Part shown: piece by piece, positions 5,360 to 43,152 of the stretch
Layout: each line of letters starts with the position of its first letter
Position numbering within the stretch: position 1 is the stretch's first letter
Assembly (NCBI RefSeq): GCF_001243045.1
Contig: NZ_LN849007.1
Location: 1,826,989 to 1,890,988 of the forward strand
Reading direction: 5' to 3'
Origin: Clostridium niameyense
Lineage (GTDB): Bacteria; Bacillota; Clostridia; Clostridiales; Clostridiaceae
DNA length: 64,000 nt
Notes under the pieces: model-generated
What the model saw: the letters and a program-made list of their open reading frames with translations, nothing else
What the model was told of the DNA's origin: nothing
Database searches by the model: none
Translations under genes and position numbers: made by a program

Positions 5360-5860
5360 ATGAGTATTTATTTAAGGAAAGAAGCTGTAAAATACGCTAT
5401 GCAATATGCCTTAATTCCAAATCCTAATTATAAATATTTTGAAGTACATGAAGGCGTTGGTGGTGATTGTACAAATTTTACTTCCCAATGCTTAAAAGCA
5501 GGCGGTGCTCCCTTGGTTTATAATTTTATTAATCCATGGTGGTACAATAATAAAAATGGTATTGTGTGTTGGACCTTATCTTGGACTGTAGCTCATTCCC
5601 TTTATTGGCGCTTAATAATAAATAATGAATATAATTTAAATGGTCCTAAAGGCATAGAAACTGAAAATATAGATGATCTCGAAATAGGAGATTTAATATT
5701 TTATGAGGATATTAATGGTTTAATCTATCACTCAGCAATAATTACATCTTTCTTTTATGGTGAACCTTTAATATCCCAACATACTTTTAATGCATTAAAT
5801 ATACCCTATCCAAAACCTTATAGAGCTGTAAAAAATCATTTCTTAAAAATATATGTATAA
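5360..5860 (+). CDS. Amidase_6 domain protein (copy 1)
   Basis: This 166-residue protein matches the putative amidase domain (Amidase_6) over its whole length. It shows NPNYKYF near residue 21, the GGDCTNFTSQCLKAGG core holding the presumed catalytic Cys37, a WW pair near residue 60, and a late YHSAIITS segment with the presumed His. The fold is thought to be NlpC/P60-like, so a peptidoglycan or peptide amide bond is the likely target. No signal peptide is present. This suggests a cytosolic or mother-cell location, or release by lysis. The ribosome site is weak. The protein is a close paralogue of the one at 9225-9725, and the transport operon lies between them. Confidence 0.82.
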   Translation: MSIYLRKEAVKYAMQYALIPNPNYKYFEVHEGVGGDCTNFTSQCLKAGGAPLVYNFINPWWYNNKNGIVCWTLSWTVAHSLYWRLIINNEYNLNGPKGIETENIDDLEIGDLIFYEDINGLIYHSAIITSFFYGEPLISQHTFNALNIPYPKPYRAVKNHFLKIYV

Positions 5861-9224: not shown

Positions 9225-9725
9225 ATGGGTAAGTATTTAAGAGAACAAGCAGTAGACTATGCAACAATATTTGCTTTATCTCCAAATCCCAATTATAAGT
9301 ATTTTGATGTTATAGGAACTATTGGTGGAGATTGCACAAACTTCACTTCTCAATGTCTAAAAGCCGGTGGTGCTCCTTTCGTTTTTGATAGTAGCCATCC
9401 TTGGTGGTATAAAAACGATCCTCTTAATCCAAGTTGGTCAATTTCTTGGGCTGTAGCACATTCTCTTTATTGGTGCTTAAAAGTAAATCATAATAATGAT
9501 TTACCAGGACCTAAAGGTTCTGAAACAAAAAATATAAATGAACTTAAGTTAGGTGATCTAATATTTTATGAAGATATTAATGGTTTAATATTTCATTCAG
9601 CTATAATTACTTCTTTTGCTCATGGTAAACCTTTAATATCTCAACATACCTTTAATGCTTTAAATATACCCTATGAAAAATCTTATAGAGCCACAAAAAC
9701 TCACTTTTTAAAGATATCTTTATAA
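9225..9725 (+). CDS. Amidase_6 domain protein (copy 2)
   Basis: It has the same length (166 residues) and domain as the protein at 5360-5860. The two are clearly paralogous along their whole length, sharing the blocks GGDCTNFTSQCLKAGGAP, GDLIFYEDINGL and PLISQHTFNALNIPY. The presumed catalytic Cys37 and His are kept. The differences are mainly in the region around residues 55-70 and in charged surface residues, so both copies look functional. No signal peptide is present. It is placed right after the transport operon terminator and has its own leader. Confidence 0.82.
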   Translation: MGKYLREQAVDYATIFALSPNPNYKYFDVIGTIGGDCTNFTSQCLKAGGAPFVFDSSHPWWYKNDPLNPSWSISWAVAHSLYWCLKVNHNNDLPGPKGSETKNINELKLGDLIFYEDINGLIFHSAIITSFAHGKPLISQHTFNALNIPYEKSYRATKTHFLKISL

Positions 9726-34192: not shown

Positions 34193-35680
34193 TTATTTTC
34201 CCTTTATAATTCCTACAGCTATTCCCATAATATTTGCTCCTTCTTCTACTATAGGTATAGCATCATACTTATCATTTTCTGGCATAAGTAAAATTTTAGA
34301 TTTATTTATTGAGAGTCTTTTAAGAGTTGCATCTCCAAATAAATTTACTGCTACTATATCTCCATTTTGTGCCATTTGTTCTCTTTTTATAACCACATAA
34401 TCCCCATTTTCTATATTAGCACCTATCATACTATCTCCCTTTACTTTTAATATAAAACAATCCTTCATACCTTTAATCCAATACTTAGGTATATAAAAAT
34501 TATCTTCTACATAAGGGTTCATTAAAATAGGTTGTCCTGCAGCTATATCATTAAATACTGGAAGTGATACTAAATCACGCTCTTTATATTCATCAACGTA
34601 CCCCTCTTGTTTTACTGAAATTTCCTTATTATTATCCATATCCTTATAAAATTTATAATCCCTTTTATGTTTTATATCTATATAATGGAACTTATTCTCA
34701 GCAGTATAGGATAACCTCTTTAAGTTCAATTCATTATCTATATTCACTTTAGAAGAAACATTAAACTTTTTACTAAAATTAAATCTTTTGAAATCAAAAC
34801 CTAAATTTAAATCACTTAATTTGCGTTTTGATATTATCCAACCATTATACTGTGGATTTTCTTCCTTATCTGCTACAAAAAATATACTGGAATGTTCAGT
34901 ATATTTTCTTAATGCTTGTACAAACTTCAGTTCTGATTTAGTAAAAATTTCTGTTTCATCTACTATTATATGAGAAAATTTATACCTTTCTTTTAGAACT
35001 TCACATAAGGCCATATTTATTTTATTATTATAATCTATTAATTTTTTTTCTTTTAATTTATTATTATAAAAAGTCATTACATGAAATATGGCTTCTCTCA
35101 TCCTTGAACTTTTTATAACTCTTTGAGGTCCTTGTCCTTTTTCCACCTTACGTCCTATTCTATCTGCATTTTTATAGTCTTCATAATTAAAATACATACA
35201 ATCTTTAATCCAATTTATTTCTTCTAAAAAAAACTTTTTATATTTTGTATTTACATATTTTAATGTTTTATATTTAGGTTCTATAAAATTTATTCCTTCT
35301 TCTATTATTTCTACCTTTTCTGTTTCACTTATTAGATTATAATTTATTTTATTTGCATCTACATATTTTAAAAAATATTTATTTATAATTTTATCTATAG
35401 TATTAAAACATACTTTATCTTCTATGTAATAAAATAAAGTTCTATATTGAATTTCTTCATTTTGTGCTTTATCATATATTTTTTTAATTTTTTCTAAATT
35501 TCTCTTACCCTTTGATGTAATTAATATTTTATCCTTTTCATACATACAATATTGATTTTTAAGATATAGTCCTCTATATATAGCTGTGGTAGTTTTTCCG
35601 GTATCTATAGCACCTCTTAATAATGAATACCCTAAGTATTTATTTTTAACTATTTTATTTTGCCTTTTTTCTAAATTCAC
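34193..35680 (-). CDS. Helicase-like P-loop ATPase fused to a LexA-type S24 peptidase
   Basis: The N-terminal half resembles the first RecA domain of UvrD-type (SF1A) helicases: Walker A GAIDTGKTTT (residues 23-32), Walker B/motif II IIVDETE near 243, and a weak motif III SIFFVADKEENPQY near 268. Motifs IV-VI are not visible, so it is probably not a complete helicase. Residues about 373-495 form a peptidase S24 domain with the Ala381-Gly382 cleavage site, Ser417 (GDSM) and Lys454 (ATLKR). The 35- and 37-residue spacings equal those of LexA. There is no LexA DNA-binding domain. It starts at GTG after GGTGGTGG. Function is not established; a RecA-responsive switch is inference. Confidence 0.75.
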   Translation of the reverse strand: MNLEKRQNKIVKNKYLGYSLLRGAIDTGKTTTAIYRGLYLKNQYCMYEKDKILITSKGKRNLEKIKKIYDKAQNEEIQYRTLFYYIEDKVCFNTIDKIINKYFLKYVDANKINYNLISETEKVEIIEEGINFIEPKYKTLKYVNTKYKKFFLEEINWIKDCMYFNYEDYKNADRIGRKVEKGQGPQRVIKSSRMREAIFHVMTFYNNKLKEKKLIDYNNKINMALCEVLKERYKFSHIIVDETEIFTKSELKFVQALRKYTEHSSIFFVADKEENPQYNGWIISKRKLSDLNLGFDFKRFNFSKKFNVSSKVNIDNELNLKRLSYTAENKFHYIDIKHKRDYKFYKDMDNNKEISVKQEGYVDEYKERDLVSLPVFNDIAAGQPILMNPYVEDNFYIPKYWIKGMKDCFILKVKGDSMIGANIENGDYVVIKREQMAQNGDIVAVNLFGDATLKRLSINKSKILLMPENDKYDAIPIVEEGANIMGIAVGIIKGK

Positions 35681-41952: not shown

Positions 41953-43152
41953 TTATTTTATACTTTTAAAATATCCTGTATCTTTTGTTATATATATATT
42001 TCCCTTTTTTCTTATTTCATTTTCCAAATAATCATAAATATTTTTTAAATCTTTTGAAGATAAACTTATCTTGTTATTTCCCGGCATAGAAAATATATAA
42101 TCTAGTATATATACAGGATCTGTTACCATTAAATTATCTTCATATCGTTTTGTGTAAACTTTTTTAAAGTAGTTAGATATTACATCTAAACCGTTTTCCA
42201 ATTGAAAACTATCTGTACTTTCCCAACTTTTACTAGTTAAATTATATATATTAAATTTAGATATAATTTCTCTTATTTCCTTCATATGATTTTTTCCTAC
42301 AGTAGATGAAAAAAAAGTACCTTTAGGCTTTAATACTCTTTTTATTTCATCTAAAGCTTTATCTATATTGTCTACATGATAAAGCATATGATTTGCAATA
42401 ACCACATGAAAACTCTCATCTTCAAAAGGAATACTTTGAGCATCTACAATTTTAAATTTAAATCTATCCTTTTTATAACCTAAACTTTTTTTTGCATCTT
42501 TTAACATACCTTTAGAAAAATCCGTTAAAGTTATGTCCCAAGTTTCTGGAATCTTTTTAAAATTTTTATTCCATAAAGCAGCATCACCACAACCTAATTC
42601 TAATATTTTAACATTATCTTGTAGTTTAAGTTGCTTAAAAAACCACTGCATCCATCCTTCTTTATTAGTACTAAATAATTCATGTATTTTAATTCTTGCT
42701 CTTAAATTAGATGCATTTTCATATTGCTGTGCCCAGTTTTTATCAGAATTTATAGCACTAATTATATTAACAAACTTATACCAATCTAATTCCTTATCTA
42801 AATCTAACATATTAGCTGCCTCATCCAAAGCTTTTATAACAGATTGTATATGTTTTATTTTTTCTTTCATTATTTCCTTTTGAATTTCTAAAGATTTTTT
42901 TAAGTCCCTATGATTTAAATCATACTTCATTATATTAGCTATATCATCTAAAGAAAGTCCTATAAACTTTAAAGTTAATATTTTTTGCAACTTTCCAAAA
43001 TCCTCTTTGCTATATAATCTATGGCCTGCATCATTATAAGAGGTAGGACTTAGTAAATCTATTTTATCATAATATCTTAAAGTTCTTAAGGTAACACCTG
43101 CCTTTTTAGCAAATTCACCTATAGTAAATAATTGTTCAGTGCTTTTTTCCAT
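41953..43152 (-). CDS. MerR regulator fused to a SAM-dependent methyltransferase
   Basis: Residues 1-75 are a MerR winged helix (LFTIGEFAKKAGVTLRTLRY, then YDKIDLLSP and the wing GHRLYSKEDF). A coiled helix runs to about 120, followed by a region of low similarity to about 180. A class I methyltransferase domain then occupies about 185-330: VKILELGCGDAALW, LTDFSKGML, the VVIANHMLYHV block and VLKPKGTFF. The C-terminal tail of about 70 residues is not recognised. Thus one protein may sense and modify the same ligand. The gene starts a run with two DegT aminotransferases and has a MerR-type promoter. AGAGGTG precedes the ATG. Confidence 0.85.
   Translation of the reverse strand: MEKSTEQLFTIGEFAKKAGVTLRTLRYYDKIDLLSPTSYNDAGHRLYSKEDFGKLQKILTLKFIGLSLDDIANIMKYDLNHRDLKKSLEIQKEIMKEKIKHIQSVIKALDEAANMLDLDKELDWYKFVNIISAINSDKNWAQQYENASNLRARIKIHELFSTNKEGWMQWFFKQLKLQDNVKILELGCGDAALWNKNFKKIPETWDITLTDFSKGMLKDAKKSLGYKKDRFKFKIVDAQSIPFEDESFHVVIANHMLYHVDNIDKALDEIKRVLKPKGTFFSSTVGKNHMKEIREIISKFNIYNLTSKSWESTDSFQLENGLDVISNYFKKVYTKRYEDNLMVTDPVYILDYIFSMPGNNKISLSSKDLKNIYDYLENEIRKKGNIYITKDTGYFKSIK

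Follow-up and report, generated by a model that had tools for sequence, protein, structure and literature searches.

Dependence on RecA is the usual rule in the S24 superfamily of self-cleaving proteins, and to our knowledge the self-cleaving proteins under RecA control are repressors or polymerase accessories only. LexA combines the S24 fold, with its Ala-Gly scissile pair and Ser-Lys dyad, with a winged helix-turn-helix (HTH), and UmuD has an S24 self-cleavage domain without an HTH, preceded by a short N-terminal arm only. Here we describe a gene in a 64,000-nucleotide stretch of Clostridium niameyense DNA (assembly GCF_001243045.1, contig NZ_LN849007.1, positions 1,826,989 to 1,890,988; the whole stretch is referred to as the window), the product of which is apparently, judging from its sequence, a self-cutting switch of this type joined to a motor-less helicase half that retains its ATP-binding pocket. 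The protein has the fold, scissile pair and dyad in common with LexA, but carries a pseudo-helicase half and no winged HTH, while it differs from UmuD in that ~370 mostly helicase-derived residues precede the cleavage domain. It shares domains 1A and 1B, the P-loop Lys and the Walker B Asp with the SF1A helicases UvrD, Rep and PcrA, whereas the short form to which it belongs lacks domain 2A and motifs IV-VI and has mostly lost the motif II Glu and motif III. Switches built on S24 self-cleavage are well known, and there is a fair chance that the output here is of a new type. The gene is carried by at least 98 of the 206 genomes of the Clostridium bovifaecis family, and no description of an S24-helicase fusion was found in the open-licence full-text literature, as judged by titles and the openings of abstracts.

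Our comparisons are based on an alignment of 125 of the 131 proteins matching the helicase half, i.e., 99 short forms (the window protein included) and 26 long forms, in which an additional middle section separates the helicase half from the S24 domain. Counts out of 98 refer to the short relatives, or their genomes, with the window protein excluded. The gene and its parts lie in the window as follows:

34193..35680, minus strand: whole gene, 495 aa, pseudo-helicase (UvrD 1A/1B) plus LexA-type S24
34745..35680, minus strand: UvrD/Rep-like domains 1A and 1B, residues 1-312, ending where motif IV would be
35588..35614, minus strand: Walker A GAIDTGKTT, residues 23-31 (Lys29 in 98/98 aligned short relatives)
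34949..34960, minus strand: motif II DETE, residues 241-244 (Asp in 90/98 and Glu in 19/98 short relatives)
34583..34696, minus strand: beta segment, residues 329-366, homologous to the HSDR_N_2-to-S24 stretch of the long form
34196..34573, minus strand: LexA-type S24 self-cleavage domain, residues 370-495
34535..34540, minus strand: Ala381-Gly382, predicted scissile pair
34430..34432, minus strand: Ser417, predicted catalytic
34319..34321, minus strand: Lys454, predicted catalytic

By its predicted residues, the cleavage module of the window protein is complete and is invariant in the aligned relatives, with the scissile AAG and the Ser in 98/98 and the Lys in all 97 that were readable at that position. 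In the Pfam scan PF00717 (Peptidase S24) matched residues 374-489 with 99.6 bits, against a gathering cut-off of 23.3, and in an AlphaFold model residues 372-495 resembled the LexA C-domain on structure comparison. The best-scoring NCBIfam model for this part was TIGR00498 (LexA), which matched residues 352-493 only, and at 105.6 bits missed its cut-off of 110.95. Both the fold and the residues Ala381-Gly382, Ser417 and Lys454 therefore confirm the initial annotation, which had proposed a helicase-like half joined to a complete LexA-type domain. Sampled pairs of short forms were on average 57% identical in the S24 domain and 35% in the helicase half, compared to 50% and 57%, respectively, in sampled pairs of long forms. 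Together with the pattern of conservation described below, these identities suggest that the cleavage domain is the main target of selection in the short form, along with a small, scattered set of helicase residues.

The other half of the protein gained no firm name from scans against Pfam, NCBIfam and PHROGs, and its weak matches (helicase IV, 1.4e-7; HelR, 0.003) were far below the cut-offs. In the AlphaFold model (six-row alignment, pTM 0.50) residues 15-303 fold like domains 1A and 1B of Rep, PcrA and UvrD, and the LexA winged HTH (PF01726) was not matched in the Pfam scan, in agreement with the suggestion that an SF1-type first domain stands in place of the HTH. Using motif names and roles that we take to carry over from work on UvrD-type helicases, the ATP-binding residues are mostly kept in the short relatives, namely the P-loop Lys without exception and the Q-motif Gln and Walker B Asp in 90/98 each. 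The same 98 proteins have for the most part lost motif Ia, motif III and the motif IV Arg, and the motif II Glu is retained in 19 of 83 rows of one tree group of short forms (group A, window included) and one of 16 rows of the other (group B); all four are intact in the 26 long forms. The window protein itself has the motif II Glu (E242), lacks motif III and has Asn307 at the position of the motif IV Arg; domain 2A and motifs IV-VI, which could not be recognised from the sequence at the outset, are absent from it when it is aligned with the long forms. The half had been called an ATPase, a reading which is not supported because most relatives have lost the residues for hydrolysis and for its coupling to movement and have mostly kept those for ATP binding, and a nucleotide-binding pseudo-helicase seems more likely.

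What the short form has lost is evident from the long relatives. The Ilyobacter polytropus plasmid protein WP_013389202, annotated only as an S24 family peptidase, has 810 aa, matches 96% of the window protein and is ordered as UvrD N-terminal domain, UvrD_C, HSDR_N_2 and S24. The same order of UvrD, HSDR_N_2 and S24 was found in Clostridium bovifaecis and one Marinisporobacter genome, and Anaerobium, Desulfosarcina and one Lachnospiraceae genome have proteins of ~815 aa with matches to the helicase half as well as to S24. The long forms are homologous to the window protein outside the ~300-residue middle, i.e., domain 2A and HSDR_N_2, which it lacks, with homology resuming just before S24, and they have the same cleavage module. 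They differ in that the middle is present, and in the 26 aligned the helicase motifs are intact, as are the residues of nuclease type in HSDR_N_2 (D 26/26, E 25/26, K 26/26). A structure model of the long form was poor (mean pLDDT 64, pTM 0.37) and was not used. Directly beside the long forms (L143-L162, L003, L005) a NERD-HRDC-type gene lies upstream in 6/26 and downstream in 1/26 (one cluster, of which two members were checked by Pfam), and an HNH gene lies downstream of 3/26. McrB-like AAA genes (PDC-M26A) stand beside two of the long forms scanned, and the remaining neighbours scanned were ordinary, e.g., MatE and an iron-hydrogenase-like protein. The single long form scanned with PADLOC, that of L003, resembles the models of GajB (of the Gabija system) and NERD+UvrD, whereas the window protein matches no GajB model (0 families, E 0.01); we know of no GajB protein with an S24 domain. 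It is possible that the long forms with NERD-HRDC or HNH neighbours represent an unnamed defence system built on a self-cleaving helicase-nuclease.

Truncation of the long form appears to have arisen at least twice, with similar losses. In the tree, the 83 rows of group A, which include the window, and the 16 rows of group B, which are nested among long forms, make up the short forms. A single short-form clade was rejected on 57 rows (log-likelihood 76.6 lower, p-AU 0.0013, 0/200 bootstrap trees); these rows were chosen after the 125-row tree had been seen, and the short/long split had been set by length before any tree. Separate trees of the helicase half and the S24 half each required two changes. 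The tree is unrooted, and the long form is more likely to be ancestral, since it has the motifs seen in helicases at large. Groups A and B were correlated (Spearman 0.76) in what they had retained of the 79 helicase-half positions that are invariant in long forms, with Q7, G23, G28, K29, E154, R195, H237 and D241 kept and E242, D245, A273, Q274, I276, Y277 and 307-311 lost. Two lineages without motor and nuclease that have similar ATP-binding and cleavage residues provide a natural experiment which points to residues for mutation.

We put at about one in two the chance that the window protein descends from a helicase-nuclease-S24 protein as a domesticated remnant without its motor, retained as a self-cleaving switch. 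Under this reading the protein would be made constitutively, its ATP-bound 1A/1B half would grip single-stranded nucleic acid, or else a protein partner, and stay in place, and the S24 domains would pair two helicase halves, as in LexA. Candidate partners may include RNA polymerase, proteins of replication or repair, and the DEDDh exonuclease found beside the gene in some relatives. RecA filaments, which are the probable stimulus, or another stress would then cause S24 to cut Ala381-Gly382, and the cut would part the clamp from the dimerisation part and end the hold. The outcome would be a release switch triggered by damage, distinct from both repressors and polymerase subunits. A damage-triggered switch other than a repressor, as the initial annotation had suggested, is plausible. 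The wider proposal is more tentative, and we hold it to be somewhat less probable than its opposite: that RecA-triggered self-cleavage has a third output in a non-translocating, ATP-binding pseudo-helicase clamp, which evolved at least twice from defence-like helicase-nuclease-S24 proteins and was kept by much of the family. If a conserved pseudo-helicase is indeed under a RecA switch, damage would also be sensed by cutting proteins on nucleic acid or on the replication or transcription machinery.

Several observations weigh against a damage-release clamp. The AlphaFold model has pLDDT below 50 at residues 1-29, 76-86 and 271-328 and is weak around the P-loop, and for this reason the intact ATP site is argued from residue conservation. 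The Walker B Asp and the Q-motif Gln are each absent in 8/98 relatives, therefore ATP binding is perhaps not universal, and the window protein still has the motif II Glu. An adjoining exonuclease is lacking at 85/99 loci, the window among them. A LexA box (GAACN4GTTY, searched from -200 to +60) was found at only 1/99 short genes, 0/26 long genes and 4/842 other genes, and upstream of 20/20 lexA genes as a positive control; its absence can be read as contrary to a role in the SOS response. Finally, the LexA-like protein IrvR, an exception to the rule of RecA dependence, is reported to be able to act without RecA (PMC7101444).

The same evidence has to be weighed against other explanations. The cleavage domain also matches the UmuD-type model PRK10276 (76.7 bits, cut-off 110), and a UmuD-like role, in which the freed S24 fragment activates a Y-family DNA polymerase and the helicase half brings it to single-stranded gaps, would fit with a second Y-family polymerase being more frequent where the short form is present (67/98 genomes) than where it is absent (46/108; Fisher 0.00026, kinship ignored, with 7/120 matches weaker than 1e-80 left out). 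Nevertheless, this link is weak and may reflect kinship only, the polymerase is missing from 31/98 short-form genomes and none was recognised by eye among the recurrent neighbour clusters, and the LexA model outscores that of UmuD (105.6 vs 76.7 bits), so we regard this role as improbable. An unusual transcriptional regulator, with 1A/1B bound to promoter DNA or RNA polymerase and removed by self-cleavage in the manner of LexA or cI repressors, also seems a poor prospect. Repressors do predominate among the top-scoring families and structures matched by the S24 part, and a dyad resembling ATACTATTAGTAT, which overlaps the likely -10 element in L054, L055, L058, L063, L067 and close relatives, is a possible operator and could be autoregulatory. 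However, the dyad was seen only among those close relatives, and in the N-terminal half Pfam gave no match to a family that binds DNA sequence-specifically.

The surroundings of the long forms bear on a further explanation, which is that the short form keeps their defensive role as an antiphage or plasmid sensor, a trip-wire cut on RecA activation. The initial annotation had named anti-phage defence among possible roles, and a link to defence is visible only around some long forms, which have NERD-HRDC, HNH or McrB-like neighbours; in addition, the protein from L003 resembles the GajB and NERD+UvrD models. It does not extend to the short form, the surroundings of which are varied and mostly housekeeping-looking as judged by eye, and the window protein has no PADLOC match at E 0.01. 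Moreover, 80% of its length was covered in 0/77 matches from phage records and 1/3471 from plasmid records, the latter being the Ilyobacter long form, and other neighbours of the scanned long forms were ordinary. We consider such a sensor unlikely. A decaying gene, i.e., a helicase-nuclease fragment that is being lost with S24 readable by chance, would account for the degraded helicase motifs and for relatives with other losses (L078 and L158 without S24; L103 and L137 split). It is disfavoured because the invariance of the cleavage residues and P-loop Lys spans 98 relatives with long open frames; the S24 mean identity of 57% and the similar residues kept by two independent truncations argue likewise, and we give decay hardly any weight.

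The helicase half was matched at E 1e-12 in 123 of the 206 genomes of the C. bovifaecis family, and the open frames fall mainly in two length classes, ~460-560 aa and 810-855 aa, with few others; 100 loci were fetched for the former and 20 for the latter. The figure of 98 genomes for the short form with S24 is a lower bound, as weaker, partial or odd-length matches were left out (e.g., G043, G052, G059, G063, G073, G158-G160, G173 and G179). By frame length the long form is present in 27 genomes of the family, with S24 confirmed in 21, and both forms occur together in 16, again judging the long form by frame length. In a class-wide sample 11/391 genomes matched, every one in the same family, and absence outside it is not firm because only five candidates were scored per genome. 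Two scans of viral contigs found no relatives. Among the best 30 matches listed for each of the phage and plasmid sets, a UvrD protein from Fusobacterium and the long form on the Ilyobacter plasmid stood apart, and the others covered the S24 end or little more. The alignment left out L078 and L158 (no S24), L103 and the two L137 pieces (split genes) and L008 (cut short), and kept L023 although it is ended by a contig edge. The modules of the helicase-S24 family are lost in several combinations, and the members without S24 are L078:5680-7221 (513 aa) and L158:5685-7652 (655 aa, part of HSDR_N retained). Genes in two frames were seen at L103:5893-8382 and L137:4369-7491 (G105, with summed pieces of long-form size, and G110, of short-form size).

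Canonical LexA, identified by its HTH, is present in 193/206 genomes and in 94/98 of those with the short form. The short form as a substitute for LexA was rejected given this coexistence, and regulation of a coexisting long form was rejected as a general role, since only 16/98 hold both. The short-form genomes without a LexA HTH match are G119, G154, G156 and G194, of which the last three have other S24 proteins of ~228-238 aa, less than 10 kb from the short form in G154 and G156. Upstream of the aligned group-B set (9 rows) a TATAAT-like element is well conserved.

Clustering of neighbourhoods across the 99 short-form loci revealed no neighbour common to the whole family, and for the most part the recurrent neighbours follow lineage. 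A same-strand DEDDh (RNase_T) exonuclease gene directly adjoins the short form at 14/99 loci, four upstream (L050, L052, L053, L074) and ten downstream (L082, L098, L114, L116, L119, L122, L125, L126, L127, L129), its identity having been checked by Pfam in one cluster member. It is the most suggestive neighbour because its position, upstream or downstream of the gene, varies between parts of the tree. Other directly adjacent, same-strand genes encode a metallophosphoesterase (11 loci), an ABC ATPase (11, all group B) and an aminotransferase-like protein (8), and clpS lies directly downstream in seven loci that are among the nearest relatives of the window gene (L043-L046, L048, L049, L051), followed in most by a ClpA-like gene. 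The cobU gene adjoins the gene in the window only and in 0/98 of the other short-form stretches fetched, and its co-orientation is thus accidental, as had been suspected.

Elsewhere in the window, inspection by eye showed two near-alike, amidase-like proteins of 166 aa with a GGDCTNFTSQCLKAGG motif (5360-5860 and 9225-9725), which bracket a putative iron/cobalamin ABC uptake set, and at 41953-43152 a MerR-type regulator that is apparently fused to a SAM methyltransferase.
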